DNA from: Actinomycetota bacterium
GTDB taxonomy: Bacteria > Acidobacteriota > Blastocatellia > Chloracidobacteriales > Chloracidobacteriaceae
NCBI GenBank assembly: GCA_013298335.1
Contig: JAAFHI010000016.1
Span: 1 to 13,939 of the forward strand
DNA: 13,939 nucleotides
Reading direction: 5' to 3'
In this document: piece by piece, positions 1,337 to 5,880 of the stretch
Layout: each line of letters starts with the position of its first letter
Position numbering within the stretch: position 1 is the stretch's first letter
Position numbers and translations under genes: made by a program
Notes under the pieces: model-generated
What the model was told of the DNA's origin: nothing
The model's database searches: none
Seen by the model: only the letters and a program-made list of their open reading frames with translations

Positions 1337-2566
1337 ATGCGATTTCTCTGCCTCGCGCTCACCGCAACGCTCCTGACCCCGGTTATGACCGGTGCCCAGA
1401 ACCCGCCCGAATCGAAACCGCCGACCGTCGCCAAGCCGGTCGCCGCCGACCCGCCGCTCACTGAAGTCCAGTTCTACCGGCTGCTTCAGGAAGCCCGGAA
1501 ACGGGCCACCCTGACCGAAGAGGTCGAGCGGACGCTCCGGCAGCGCGGCATTTCCTTCGAAGTCACCGACGCCATTCTCAACAGCGCCCGCGAGTTCGGC
1601 GCCACGCCCAGAATCATCGTGGCGCTGATGGCAGCCGAGGATTTCCGCCAAACCGGCAAGGGAAGCGCGCCGGAATCGCCCGCGACGACGCCATCGAATC
1701 CACCAAAATCACAGCCGACAACACCGCCACCGACGAATCCATCACCCCCGACGACGGCGCGGACGACAACGAAGCCGACCCAGCCGATCCTCTCCCGCCC
1801 CGGCCCCGGAGCGCCGGAAAGCCCCGAACAGAGGGTGGCCGAGCGCGTCGCCCGCCGTGTGGCCGCGCTCCCGATACTCGAACAGGCCCGCGAATACGCG
1901 CTCGCCACGCTCAACGACCTGCCCGATTTCGTCGCCGACCAGACCATCCGCCGGTCCACGCTCGTCCGGGGCGCATGGCAGCACCGCGACCTCCTCGAAA
2001 CGACGGTCAGCTATGAAAACACGGTCGGCGAAACGGTCCGGCTGATCTCGGTTGACGGCATTCCGGCCACCAAAAGCTATGAGGACGTGGGCGGCACGAC
2101 CAACGTCGGAACGTTTTCCTGGCACCTGACGTCGCCGTTCGCGCCGAACTCGAACGGAACCTTCAGCGAAGTCGGTCAGGAACGGTACCGCGGTCGGGAC
2201 TGCGTGATTTATCGCTATCAGGTCTCGAAGGAAACGTCGAAGTACCAGCTTCGCGCCTCCACCACGCCCTACGCCCCGGCGGAAAAACTCATCGTCGGAT
2301 ACAGCGGCAAGATGTGGATTGATCGCGACACCAAGTACGTGCTGCGCGTCGAGATGGAATCCGACGACGTCCCGCCGGATTTTCCCATGTCGCACACGGA
2401 AGTGGTGGTGGACTACGACTGGGTGACCATTTCCGAGCGACGTTTCTGGCTGCCGGTCAAGGCTGAAGCCCTCGCGGAATTCCCGAAACAGGGACAGACG
2501 TTTCTCAACGTCATTGATTTCCGCAACTACCGCAAGTTCGAAGGGGAGATCAAGATCGTGGACTGA
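1337..2566 (+). CDS. Exported beta-rich protein of unknown function, paralogue 3 (long form with extra N-terminal domain)
   Basis: This 409-residue protein has a purine-rich ribosome site (GAAGGAAG, 1323-1330) in front of ATG 1337. Layout: signal peptide 1-20 (cleavage near GAQ); a helical module 41-102 with the stretches YRLLQEARKRATLTEEVE and VTDAILNSAREFG; a Pro/Thr/Ser-rich linker about 108-162; then the same domain as paralogues 1 and 2, with a helix LPILEQAREYALATLNDLPDF (178-198), VGYSGKMWID (320-329), VDYDWVTISERRFWLP (358-373) and a terminal FRNYRKFEGEIKIVD. The linker suggests the helical module and beta domain act as separate units in the periplasm or outside the cell. Neither domain shows a catalytic motif I recognise. 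The third position in a tandem array and the shared ends point to local duplication followed by domain gain. Confidence 0.85.
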   Translation: MRFLCLALTATLLTPVMTGAQNPPESKPPTVAKPVAADPPLTEVQFYRLLQEARKRATLTEEVERTLRQRGISFEVTDAILNSAREFGATPRIIVALMAAEDFRQTGKGSAPESPATTPSNPPKSQPTTPPPTNPSPPTTARTTTKPTQPILSRPGPGAPESPEQRVAERVARRVAALPILEQAREYALATLNDLPDFVADQTIRRSTLVRGAWQHRDLLETTVSYENTVGETVRLISVDGIPATKSYEDVGGTTNVGTFSWHLTSPFAPNSNGTFSEVGQERYRGRDCVIYRYQVSKETSKYQLRASTTPYAPAEKLIVGYSGKMWIDRDTKYVLRVEMESDDVPPDFPMSHTEVVVDYDWVTISERRFWLPVKAEALAEFPKQGQTFLNVIDFRNYRKFEGEIKIVD

Positions 2567-2575
2567 CGACGGATC

Positions 2576-2592
2576 GCGCGCAACCTGCGCGC
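2576..2592 (+). terminator. Possible weak hairpin terminator after paralogue 3
   Basis: A perfect 6-bp stem GCGCGC/GCGCGC with a 5-base loop lies 9 bases after the stop codon at 2566. There is no proper T-run behind it (TTCTGAAAT), so it may only be a 3'-end stabilising hairpin. Confidence 0.3.
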
Positions 2593-2687
2593 TTCTGAAA
2601 TCGGCCATCATCCGGAAACTCGCGGAAACTGCTACTCCTTATATATACATGGGGAACCGATTCGCTCGGACGAAAGGAACCTCGCCC

Positions 2688-3485
2688 ATGACCGCTTCCA
2701 TCACCGCCGCCGCCCTCGCGCTGACGCTCGCCAGCGGGCTCGCCCACGCGGGAACGCCCGGCCCGTCACCTTCCATTGTGCCCTGGAAAGCGTCGCTCGC
2801 TTCCCCGTCCGACGAAAAGACCGTCGAGGAAAAAATCCTCGCGCATGTCCGCGCCATCGCCGCGCGCCAGAAACCGGGTCGCCAGCCCGAGGATGTCGAT
2901 GTCGACAAACTGCTCTCGGCGCAGGGATTCTATGATGTGGACCTCGCCTTTATCGTCCAGGAAACCGAGGCGACCTACCACATCCGGTTCTACACGGACG
3001 AACTCGGCGCGACCACGGAAGACCTCATGAAAACGCTGACCGTCCGAAAACTCGCGACCGTCACGGCCCGCAAGGTCAAACGCGGCGACGTCCGGCGGGT
3101 GAGTCTGACGACCGAAAACCGCGCCGCGAAAGACGTTCGGGCGGTGCTCGACACGCAGGTGGCGGCGTGGAATCGCGGCGACATCGAGGCGTTCATGGAA
3201 GGCTACTGGCGGTCGCCCGACCTGACCTTCGTTTCGGGTACGTCGGTCACGAAGGGCTGGGACGAGACCCTCGCGCGCTATCGCAAACGGTACCAAAGCG
3301 AAGGCCGGGAAATGGGGACGCTGACCTTCGAGGACCTCGAAATTCAGGTGTTCTCGAAGGATTCGGCGTTCGTCCGGGGGGCGTGGAAGCTGAAGATGAA
3401 GGATTCCGCCCCCGGCGGGCGGTTCACGCTCATCTTCCGGCGGTTTCCCGAGGGCTGGCGCATTATCCACGACCATACGTCGTAG
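2688..3485 (+). CDS. Secreted protein with ACP-like domain and SnoaL/DUF4440-like domain
   Basis: ATG 2688 is chosen because AAAGGAA lies about 8 bases upstream (2674-2680) and the protein then begins with a clean signal peptide, MTASITAAALALTLASGLAHA. An in-frame ATG at 2649 has no such support. The 265-residue product has two parts. Residues 45-130 resemble an acyl carrier protein in spacing: EEKILAHVRAIAA, then VDKLLSAQGFYDVDLAFIVQ, then a TEDLMKTLTVRKL helix. The serine that would carry phosphopantetheine is absent (FYDVDL where ACPs have DSL). Residues 150-265 fit the NTF2-like SnoaL/DUF4440 superfamily: AWNRGDIEAFMEGYW, KGWDETLARYRKRY, FVRGAWKL and a closing EGWRIIHDHTS. Such domains form cone-shaped ligand pockets or small enzymes; no ligand can be named here. 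Neighbours are not clearly related. Confidence 0.75.
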   Translation: MTASITAAALALTLASGLAHAGTPGPSPSIVPWKASLASPSDEKTVEEKILAHVRAIAARQKPGRQPEDVDVDKLLSAQGFYDVDLAFIVQETEATYHIRFYTDELGATTEDLMKTLTVRKLATVTARKVKRGDVRRVSLTTENRAAKDVRAVLDTQVAAWNRGDIEAFMEGYWRSPDLTFVSGTSVTKGWDETLARYRKRYQSEGREMGTLTFEDLEIQVFSKDSAFVRGAWKLKMKDSAPGGRFTLIFRRFPEGWRIIHDHTS

Positions 3486-3495
3486 TTGCGTGCTT

Positions 3496-3512
3496 TTGGC
3501 ATAAGAATTGCT
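3496..3512 (+). promoter_or_regulatory. Sigma-54-type (-24/-12) promoter candidate for the Panacea module
   Basis: TTGGCA-TAAGAA-TTGCT matches the sigma-54 consensus TTGGCACRN4TTGCW with correct spacing. The -24 GG is at 3498-3499 and the -12 GC at 3510-3511; the only deviation at a well conserved position is C to T after TTGGCA. Transcription would start near 3523, giving a leader of about 65 bases. No well-spaced sigma-70 pair is visible between 3486 and 3560. A short motif can arise by chance, and no activator site was identified. Confidence 0.5.
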
Positions 3513-3531
3513 TTTGTTTCGTGCTAATGTT

Positions 3532-3567
3532 GCTGTCCTATCGACAGCCGCAATGAAAAGACGGCTG
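3532..3567 (+). promoter_or_regulatory. Two mutually exclusive hairpins in the module leader
   Basis: GCTGT (3532-3536) can pair with ACAGC (3544-3548), and CAGCCG (3545-3550) can pair with CGGCTG (3562-3567). The two stems share bases 3545-3548, so only one can form at a time. They sit directly ahead of the ribosome site AAAGGAG (3576-3582). This is a visible structure; a regulatory role is inference. Confidence 0.35.
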
Positions 3568-3587
3568 CGAAGACGAAAGGAGAAAAA

Positions 3588-4013
3588 ATGGTAACAGCAC
3601 TGGATGTCGCGGAATTCATCCTTCAAGAAAAAGGTGAAATGACCGCAATGAAGCTTCAAAAACTGGTTTATTACGCTCAGGTCTGGTCCCTTGTCTGGGA
3701 TGAAAAACCACTTTTTGAAGAAAAAATAGAGGCTTGGGTGGGTGGCCCTGTCGTCCCGTCCCTTTATGAGCGACATAAGGGACAATTCACCGTCACCACA
3801 CTGGGCGGCAATCCCAACACCCTGGACGACAATGAAAAGGATACGGTTCGCCATGTCCTTGAATTTTATGGAGATAGGTCGGCTCATTGGTTGAGCGACC
3901 TGACGCATATCGAAAAACCTTGGATCGCCGCTCGCCAAGGGCTACCGCCGGGGGTACGAGGAAACGCCGAGATTTCCCTCGCTTCAATGGCTGAGTACTA
4001 CTCGGAACTTTAG
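3588..4013 (+). CDS. Panacea (DUF4065/SocA-like) domain antitoxin
   Basis: The 141-residue protein has the Panacea signature: MTAMKLQKLVYYAQVWSLVW (18-37), PLFEEKIEAWVGGPVVPSLY (41-60), a short DTVRHVLEFYG helix (85-95), then WLSDLTHIEKPW (101-112), corresponding to the family's L-x2-x-TH-x-E-x-PW element. The domain is complete. Panacea proteins act as antitoxins for many unrelated toxins, and some are linked to proteolytic adaptor roles (SocA). A strong ribosome site, AAAGGAG, lies 5 bases before ATG 3588. The stop codon TAG overlaps the ribosome site (AGGAG, 4012-4016) of the next gene, so the two are translated together. Base composition is clearly poorer in G+C than the flanks (25 of 60 at 3601-3660 against 39 of 60 at 3241-3300, hand counts), suggesting acquisition by transfer. 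Confidence 0.88.
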   Translation: MVTALDVAEFILQEKGEMTAMKLQKLVYYAQVWSLVWDEKPLFEEKIEAWVGGPVVPSLYERHKGQFTVTTLGGNPNTLDDNEKDTVRHVLEFYGDRSAHWLSDLTHIEKPWIAARQGLPPGVRGNAEISLASMAEYYSEL

Positions 4014-4022
4014 GAGTAAATC

Positions 4023-4472
4023 GTGGCGAAAAACAAAAAACCTAAAACGTCACTGATTGGAAACAATCTGAGAGGGAAACATCCAAAGGCTGAAACCCCG
4101 CCTAATTCAAACAACCAGCGCCCGTCTTGGAGAATTTCCAAAATTGAAATGGATGGTCCTTTTGGTTGGCAAGAACTTGACGTTGAAAAACTTGATGAGG
4201 TTCGAGCCAAACTTTCCGATTTTGAATCCTCGACCTGGAACCAGATTCTCGTTGAAAACAAGCATCGAAACCACACGGTTCAAGTTTCCGGAATCATTCC
4301 CCAAGCGCAATCAAGACTTGAGGAAATCCAACTCGGCGACGTTGAAGAACTGGTTTCATTGAGATTGAGTGGTCCAGAGCGAGTTTGGGGGATACGTGAA
4401 GCTGCCGTGATGCTGGTCCTTTGGTGGGACCCTGACCATCAGATTTGCCCGTCACCCAAGAAACATACCTGA
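4023..4472 (+). CDS. Unclassified small protein, predicted toxin partner of the Panacea antitoxin
   Basis: The GTG start at 4023 follows AGGAG (4012-4016) that overlaps the previous stop codon; the gap between the two genes is 9 bases. The 149-residue product has a basic, probably disordered N-terminus (1-35, many Lys and Asn) and then a compact domain. Notable elements are SWRISKIEMDGPFGW (35-49), ESSTWNQIL (68-76), AQSRLEEIQLGDVEELVSLR (95-114) and RVWGIREAAVMLVLWWDPDH (120-139), closing with CPSPKKHT. I recall families ending in LWWDP-x-H-x-x-CPS-x-KKHT beside DUF4065 genes, usually annotated as hypothetical. The beta-strand followed by His-rich C-terminus is loosely like RelE/YoeB ribonucleases, but homology is not established. 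Position second to an antitoxin and low G+C (23 of 60 at 4141-4200) support a toxin role by inference. Confidence 0.7.
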   Translation: MAKNKKPKTSLIGNNLRGKHPKAETPPNSNNQRPSWRISKIEMDGPFGWQELDVEKLDEVRAKLSDFESSTWNQILVENKHRNHTVQVSGIIPQAQSRLEEIQLGDVEELVSLRLSGPERVWGIREAAVMLVLWWDPDHQICPSPKKHT

Positions 4473-4488
4473 TTGTTCCACCGACACG

Positions 4489-4532
4489 AAAAAGCGCGGC
4501 CCGGAGAGAATTTCTCCGCGCCGCGCTTTTTT
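4489..4532. terminator. Bidirectional intrinsic terminator between convergent genes
   Basis: The stem pairs 4493-4500 with 4520-4527 (AGCGCGGC/GCCGCGCT), skips one mismatch, then pairs 4502-4507 with 4513-4518 (CGGAGA/TCTCCG) around a 5-base loop. Flanking AAAA (4489-4492) and TTTTTT (4527-4532) give a T-run in both directions. It ends the Panacea module on the plus strand and amt on the minus strand. Confidence 0.9.
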
Positions 4533-4548
4533 GAATGGAATCAATCGC

Positions 4549-5880
4549 TTACGAAGCCGAACTGGGTTCGGGCGACCCCGAGGTTTCCGGTTTGAGCAGT
4601 CCTTCGAGCGGATTCACGATGACCGAGCCGCCGAGAATATCCGCCCCGGCACCGTCGGCGTAGACTTCTTCGCCGTGTTCGTGCCGGTCGAGACCTTCGA
4701 CTTCCTCACGCAGACCGACCCGCAGCGGCGTCACCAGACCGATGAGTTTGAGCAGTCCGTATGACATGACGACCGTGAACCCGATCGTCGCACCGACCGC
4801 AATCAGTTGCGTCAGAAGGAGTTTCGGATTTCCGGCGAGCAGGCCGTCCGCGCCGGCGCTGTTGAGCGATTTCTGGGCGAACACACCCGTCAGCAACGCT
4901 CCTGAGATGCCGCCGATGCCGTGGCAGGCGAACACGTCGAGCGTGTCGTCGAGTTTGGTCCGCGCCCGCATCTGGATGGCGAAGTAACTCGCCGTCGCGC
5001 TGATGATTCCGATGGCCACCGCCGCGAGCGGCGAAACGAATCCGGCTGCCGGCGTGATGCCGACCAGACCGACCACCGCCGCCGTCGCCGCGCCGACCGC
5101 CGTCGGTTTGCCGCCGGTGCCGGTTTCGAGCATGAGCCACATCAGCATCGCTGCCGCCGCGCTCATGTTGGTGGTGACGAACGCGAGACTCGCCAGCCCG
5201 TTGGCGCCGAGCGCCGAACCGGCGTTGAATCCGAACCAGCCGAACCAGAGCAGCCCGGCCCCGAGCAGAACGAACGGAATGTTGTGCGGCAGGCTCGGCG
5301 TCCGCCGGTTTTCCTGCCGGGGGCCGAGTACCAGCGCGCAGACCAGCGCGGCGCAGCCCGCCGTGATGTGGACGACCGTGCCGCCCGCGAAATCGAGCGC
5401 GCCCAGATTGCGAATCCAGCCGCCGATGCCCCAGACCCAGTGCGCGACCGGCGCGTAGACCACGACGCCCCAGAAAATGATGAAGAGCATGTAGGCGCGG
5501 AATTTCATCCGGCCAACGATCGCCCCGCAGATGAGCGCGGGGGTGATGACGGCAAACATGCACTGGAAGATGGCGAATGCGAGGTGCGGAATCGTGGCGG
5601 CGTAGTCGGCCTGCGGATCCTGTCCGACGCCGTTGAAGCCGACCCACGTCAGTTTCCCGAGCCACTGCGAACCCGGCGAAAAGGCCAGCGAGTAGCCGAT
5701 GCCCATCCACACGAGCGCGCTCGCCGCGAGCGCGATGACCACCATCATGAACGTATTCAGCGCGTTGCGCCGATGAACGAGTCCACCATAGAAAAACGCC
5801 AGACCCGGCGTCATCAGAAAGACCAGCGCGGTGCTGATCAGAACCCAGGCGGTATCCCCTGCCGAAATGGTTGAATTCAT
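4549..5880 (-). CDS. amt: Ammonium transporter Amt
   Basis: This 443-residue integral membrane protein is a full-length Amt/Mep/Rh channel that brings ammonium into the cell. It shows the family order: an AFFYGGLVHRRNALNT segment after helix 1 (28-43), F105/F109 near the outer gate, DFAGGTVVHITAG (163-175) with the acidic residue D163 and pore histidine H171, FGFNAGSALGANG (216-228), and DVFACHGIGGISG (315-327) with the second pore histidine H320. About eleven hydrophobic helices can be counted. The cytoplasmic tail LREEVEGLDRHEHGEEVY (390-407) is the conserved regulatory segment that PII proteins dock on. Its ATG overlaps the stop of glnB by four bases (ATGA), so translation is coupled. The extreme C-terminus is Pro/Ser-rich. 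Confidence 0.97.
   Translation of the reverse strand: MNSTISAGDTAWVLISTALVFLMTPGLAFFYGGLVHRRNALNTFMMVVIALAASALVWMGIGYSLAFSPGSQWLGKLTWVGFNGVGQDPQADYAATIPHLAFAIFQCMFAVITPALICGAIVGRMKFRAYMLFIIFWGVVVYAPVAHWVWGIGGWIRNLGALDFAGGTVVHITAGCAALVCALVLGPRQENRRTPSLPHNIPFVLLGAGLLWFGWFGFNAGSALGANGLASLAFVTTNMSAAAAMLMWLMLETGTGGKPTAVGAATAAVVGLVGITPAAGFVSPLAAVAIGIISATASYFAIQMRARTKLDDTLDVFACHGIGGISGALLTGVFAQKSLNSAGADGLLAGNPKLLLTQLIAVGATIGFTVVMSYGLLKLIGLVTPLRVGLREEVEGLDRHEHGEEVYADGAGADILGGSVIVNPLEGLLKPETSGSPEPSSAS

Follow-up and report, generated by a model that had tools for sequence, protein, structure and literature searches.

The 13,939-nucleotide stretch of DNA analyzed here (hereafter the window; positions 1 to 13,939 of contig JAAFHI010000016.1, assembly GCA_013298335.1) comes from a member of the Chloracidobacteriaceae (Acidobacteriota) and carries a compact pair of genes that we interpret as a candidate toxin-antitoxin operon. 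The upstream gene, panA, encodes a protein with a Panacea (DUF4065) domain, PanA; the downstream gene encodes a 149-residue protein, referred to below as the partner. The pair and the signal that connects them are located as follows.

3588–4013, plus strand: panA, a stand-alone Panacea (DUF4065/SocA-like) putative antitoxin; open reading frame (ORF) with an ATG start, 141 residues.
4012–4016, plus strand: AGGAG ribosome-binding site of the partner, lying across the panA stop codon, as read from the sequence.
4023–4472, plus strand: panT-like gene encoding the partner; ORF with a GTG start, 149 residues, RelE/BECR fold predicted by a structure model.

The two genes share a common reading frame. 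The TAG stop codon of panA (4011–4013) shares bases with the AGGAG site, and the GTG start follows six bases further on. A preliminary description of this DNA had the genes overlapping through the stop codon and the ribosome site; the stop codon does run into that site, but the reading frames themselves are separated by 9 nt. PanA matches PF13274 over residues 23–112 (E = 2.3e-17; 64.4 bits against a curated cut-off of 25.7), which bears out the earlier claim of a complete Panacea gene. No extra domain was found beside Panacea, and sequence comparison of PanA with solved structures gave chance-level matches (best E = 0.16, a nucleoside diphosphate kinase). A type VI SocAB pair was ruled out, as the SocA equivalog model NF047745 scores 47.5 bits against a cut-off of 190. 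The Panacea proteins of the family are mostly acidic, with a median isoelectric point of 5.2 and values below 6.5 in 59 of 86.

The partner is almost exclusively paired with Panacea. Genome loci were picked by the partner alone (the best 80 of 168 relatives, with identical partners at L047 and L048), and Panacea was scored afterwards by profile. A Panacea gene lies upstream on the same strand at 79 of these 80 loci, and within 100 nt or overlapping at 73, which rules out chance adjacency of two genes. The same arrangement is seen directly upstream at 9/9 viral loci (three of identical sequence), and Panacea lies beside the partner at all five places in the phylum sample. The neighborhood survey thus agrees with the preliminary description, which had proposed a toxin-antitoxin system. 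Six loci have Panacea more than 100 nt from the partner (L018, L034, L059, L079, L080 and L085), some with a short or split frame. At L018, L034 and L079, Panacea is a short remnant, is split between frames or lies more than 1 kb away, while the toxin sequence persists. The homologue at L033 (5947–6399) has no Panacea beside it; it is located 143 nt 3′ of what appears by eye to be a RelE-type toxin-antitoxin pair, and carries the motif WWDAGH instead of WWDPxH. At L102 (1381–2326), a Panacea gene is followed by a 154-residue protein in which the motif takes a remote form, WLDPEHKLYP, which suggests a wider superfamily of Panacea partners.

Viewed from the Panacea side, 28 of the 30 Panacea loci retrieved from the phylum score with the Panacea profile built from this family. 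The partner is present at the top three of these, two lower-scoring ones have distant relatives of it (E = 3e-3 and 2e-9), and the remaining 23 have none. Only the nearest Panaceas carry the partner, and therefore one Panacea clade appears tied to one toxin family; other Panaceas have other neighbors. Distances among PanA proteins correlate with those among partners (r = 0.43 for 84 pairs, permutation maximum 0.18), a value to which common descent of the hosts contributes. The flanks of the loci show no dominant neighbor among 139 ORFs. For this survey, 11 loci (chlamydial, duplicate or distant) were skipped beforehand and L033 was left out because it has no pair; from 149 flanking ORFs, five over 900 residues and five from the window locus and two loci that are near or exact repeats (L001, L008 and L031) were dropped.

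The partner is predicted to adopt the fold of the RelE/HigB/YoeB/YafQ (BECR) toxins. In structure comparison, RelE heads both lists (scores of 7.3 and 8.0), and entries named ParE or ParDE score 4.2–4.8 in the first and 5.2–6.1 in the second. Conservation was counted over 85 unique sequences of 90 aligned rows (E < 1e-20, at least 120 residues, L012 dropped). Arg120, Trp134, Asp136, His139 and the final residue Thr149 are invariant in the rows covering these positions. Many RelE-type toxins cut RNA, and Arg120, Asp136 and His139 would presumably suit an RNase site, given the residue roles in the RelE family. The N-terminus forms a basic, flexible arm of about 30 residues, with a net charge of at least +3 in 75 of 86 members. 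The predicted local distance difference test score (pLDDT) of the monomer model is 52 for residues 11–20, 79 for residues 21–30 and 69 for the loop at 41–50.

By sequence, the partner matches no Pfam family at E ≤ 1, and none of the named toxin families of Pfam (RelE, HigB, YoeB, YafQ, ParE and others, among the nine families listed) was matched at this threshold in 36 members of its family. The preliminary description placed it outside the known toxin families; this holds for Pfam, but the predicted fold and weak links to MAG6450, NsnC and PHROG 8366 now give it relatives. A profile search found 789 relatives at E ≤ 0.01 among 8000 scored candidates, 120 of them listed individually. The MAG6450 family model NF046006 scores 20.6 bits with the partner, below its curated cut-off of 40, and is matched by 32 of the 36 family members at E ≤ 0.01. 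PHROG 8366 is matched at E = 2.1e-8, and the C-terminal end of PADLOC NsnC (residues 185–280, about 100 residues) at E = 1e-5. Searches by sequence against solved structures remained at chance level both with a profile of the partner (best E = 0.6) and with a 99-residue bridge family (best E = 0.11); the viral fold library returned no match at E < 0.001, and plasmid records none. Phage records yielded a single weak match (24.8% identity, E = 3e-7), to an entry that carries no annotation. The name ps3, carried by a Mycoplasma protein discussed next, is presumably a DUF4065 name. In Mycoplasma agalactiae, the family namesake MAG6450 adjoins MAG6440 by locus number; the former is given merely as a conserved hypothetical protein and the latter is annotated “putative prophage protein ps3” in the M. 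agalactiae annotation cited (PMC3179502). Because MAG6440 next door carries the ps3 name, the MAG6450 family may likewise be Panacea-linked.

The source genome contains one clear copy of the partner, a second place at E = 0.63 being chance. It is present at E ≤ 1e-5 in only three of the other 395 phylum genomes, and its distribution is therefore patchy. NF046006 matches three of 396 phylum genomes at E ≤ 1e-4, none above the cut-off and one of them being the partner family itself (G386). By their record titles, the 80 genome loci come from genera of Cyanobacteria and from Acidobacteria, Deltaproteobacteria, Planctomycetota, Chlamydiae, Poribacteria, Acidimicrobiaceae, Verrucomicrobia and others. 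The pair has a G+C content of 48.2% (panA 50.2%, partner gene 46.7%), compared to a background of 60.0% (sd 3.7) in which only 2 of 333 windows are as low; these are overlapping 885-bp windows from 13 contigs and the window flanks, 7 of 20 contigs being all N and dropped. The pair is thus low in G+C, as described earlier, but less so than the 38–42% of the blocks sampled then. Third-position G+C is 0.51 in panA and 0.44 in the partner gene versus 0.71–0.82 in eight neighboring ORFs. Since both overall and third-position values are low, the pair looks horizontally acquired. Neither gene was found by these searches in the five genomes listed under the same family (G051, G063, G096, G123 and G165).

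A joint model was built from the natural read-through of the window and 20 loci as one chain, supplemented by 18 rows covering the partner alone and 19 covering PanA alone. The co-fold asked for in the preliminary description is confident (predicted template modeling score 0.84, pLDDT 92.7), for the cognate pair with neither a decoy pair nor an interface read-out. Within it, pLDDT is 56 for toxin residues 6–15 and 84 for residues 16–25, and the loop at 41–50 lies in blocks at 91–95. Because at least one fifth of the rows cover the toxin half alone, the Panacea fold receives no verdict; no Panacea structure is among the 50 structure entries listed for the fused model. In a published prediction with supporting exchanges, a stand-alone Panacea contacts PanT-D11 at its unstructured N-terminus and at a short helix (PMC10440598). 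By analogy, we propose a similar contact between PanA and the basic arm of the partner.

Two further features flank the pair.

3545–3567, no strand assigned: inverted repeat CAGCCG-11 nt-CGGCTG just 5′ of panA, one of five short pairs listed.
4487–4533, no strand assigned: G+C-rich, near-symmetrical hairpin with an A run and a T run, a likely terminator, by folding energy, with its position read from the sequence.

The inverted repeat is a possible operator, or could be due to chance; neither protein of the pair showed a DNA-binding domain. The hairpin, followed by a U run, has a folding energy of –34.7 kcal/mol (z = –7.1), with none of 200 shuffles equally stable, in line with the strong terminator described earlier. 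It may equally terminate the convergent ammonium transporter gene (4549–5880, minus strand), because the A-run/stem/T-run arrangement is near-symmetrical and lies between convergent genes. The promoter candidate proposed previously was not recovered: a consensus scan of 3400–4700 found none (0.5 expected by chance), although this is a weak test as the same scan missed the hairpin. On the other side, the pair is bordered by a SnoaL/DUF4440 gene (2514–3485), and the neighboring genes in the window are ordinary ones (ammonium transporter, P-II, TPR, CorC, CarD). Rfam has no match anywhere in the window. Upstream, tandem paralogous proteins (335–1207, 1337–2566 and 13–237) end in a YRKFDGDVKIVD-like motif; the two longer ones share 48% identity over 237 residues, and the longest has no Pfam match at E ≤ 0.001.

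We favor, with a probability of roughly 0.7, a PanAT-type (type II) operon gained by horizontal transfer, in which a toxin of the RelE/HigB/YoeB (BECR) fold is held off by Panacea. The antitoxin gene would precede the toxin gene, and the stand-alone, usually acidic Panacea would bind the toxin directly and keep it off, gripping its basic flexible arm among other parts. Free of Panacea, the 149-residue toxin would block translation by mRNA cleavage, probably at the ribosome. The toxin would then arrest the cell once Panacea is lost or displaced, either because proteases turn it over or because it senses a cue from phage or stress. The near-exclusive pairing and the predicted RelE-type fold both support the toxin-antitoxin interpretation, which makes the partner a plausible new toxin of a known kind. 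Several points call for caution. At E ≤ 0.1, 2 of 14 control genomes are matched by the MAG6450 model and 2 of 14 by the NsnC model, and because of this the two links alone cannot carry the case. The co-fold used a deeper alignment than the monomer and its linker runs on as a helix. The basic arm might bind the ribosome instead of Panacea.

The same pair could act on a different target, the toxin being a ParE-like gyrase inhibitor or hitting something else, with the shared fold used without RNase chemistry. We consider this unlikely: RelE scores well above the ParE and ParDE entries in both structural lists, and the invariant Arg120, Asp136 and His139 would, as assumed above, fit an RNase site. 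Moreover, the relative PtuZ has been modeled as HigB/YoeB-like (PMC11980606). Less likely still, the partner is no toxin at all and forms a conserved complex with Panacea that serves regulation or structure. Toxicity of the partner is a prediction, and the related MAG6450 is described merely as a conserved hypothetical protein (PMC3179502), yet in predicted fold, order of genes, patchy distribution and pairing the two genes match type II toxin-antitoxin operons.

The pair might instead be primarily an anti-phage device, with Panacea as sensor and the RelE-like protein as the effector of abortive infection, a relative of the effector domain in NsnABC/ptuXYZ. This explanation overlaps the toxin-antitoxin operon that we favor and differs in trigger and purpose; we regard it as a real but lesser possibility. 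The sequence link of the partner to NsnC, the nine loci on viral contigs and some defense-like flanking genes are consistent with it, as is the gene order at L152 (GmrSD_N, AAA_15/DUF3696, NsnC), which is that of ptuXYZ. Ernits 2023 also favors Panacea as a sensor (PMC10440598). The genes around the pair in the window are ordinary, however, and among the first 25 of 296 families listed, no defense family is matched by more than four of the 139 flanking ORFs. A bolder scheme, which we hold to be doubtful, has one RelE-fold effector under two control systems, a Panacea sensor-antitoxin and a PIN-like fusion under an ATPase/DUF262 gate; the pair would serve abortive infection, a phage cue would free the Panacea-clamped arm, and such defense systems would be built by module swapping. 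For the toxin-antitoxin operon, the significance is that a large, widespread family of hypothetical proteins is placed within a testable toxin fold. The pair offers a natural system for asking how the promiscuous Panacea holds a RelE-type toxin and what releases it. Whether Panacea acts as a sensor can be tested directly, given the similarity in sequence between the partner and a candidate anti-phage effector.

RelE-type toxins usually have RelB, HigA, YefM or DinJ as antitoxins. The partner differs from RelE, HigB, YoeB and YafQ in pairing with Panacea, in its lack of a Pfam match, in its basic arm of about 30 residues, and in the WWDPxH motif near the C-terminus with the conserved final threonine. 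For the MAG6450 family (NF046006) and PHROG 8366, the libraries state no function. AarT-AAA (NetFlax D3:D29) is similar in that its toxin has no recognizable sequence family and an mRNA-interferase fold, but its antitoxin is an ATPase, not Panacea, a likeness drawn by description (PMC10440598).

NsnC resembles the partner in its C-terminal end, and profile alignment connects the partner with a family that has matches to NsnC. The partner lacks the PIN-like N-terminal half and the ATPase and DUF262 genes, and is paired with Panacea; in the window, the genes adjoining the pair are the SnoaL-like and ammonium transporter genes. At one place (L149/L152; 1042–4151 of L152), GmrSD_N (DUF262) is followed by a DUF3696 ATPase and then NsnC; the ATPase matches NsnB at E = 1.3e-76 and the 293-residue NsnC its model at E = 5.8e-83. 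Gerdes modeled the C-terminal domain of PtuZ in ptuXYZ as HigB/YoeB-like (PMC11980606). Because the gene order at L152 equals the ptuXYZ layout, we infer that NsnABC (PADLOC) and ptuXYZ (Gerdes) may be one candidate defense system under two names, which would have an effector domain in common with the partner. The literature gave, among the titles listed, nothing about the NsnC protein and, for ptuXYZ, the Gerdes paper alone, the main text of which never mentions DUF4065, Panacea, PanA or SocA (PMC11980606).

Panacea-neutralized toxins of many folds are already established (PMC8832971, PMC10440598), RelE/ParE is among the common folds of the NetFlax network (PMC10440598), and Kurata 2022 reported ParE matches beside Panacea (PMC8832971). 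No text describing the partner family was found in the literature on DUF4065/Panacea, RelE and toxin-antitoxin systems, judged largely from listings, and the family may already be among the 88 published Panacea clusters or the NetFlax nodes. None of the ten characterized PanAT toxins is called RelE-like in the descriptions of Table 1. In other respects the present pair closely follows PanAT: the Panacea antitoxin comes first, the genes lie less than 100 nt apart, many phyla are represented, and the toxin begins with a flexible stretch that a stand-alone Panacea possibly grips, as predicted for PanT-D11 (PMC8832971, PMC10440598).
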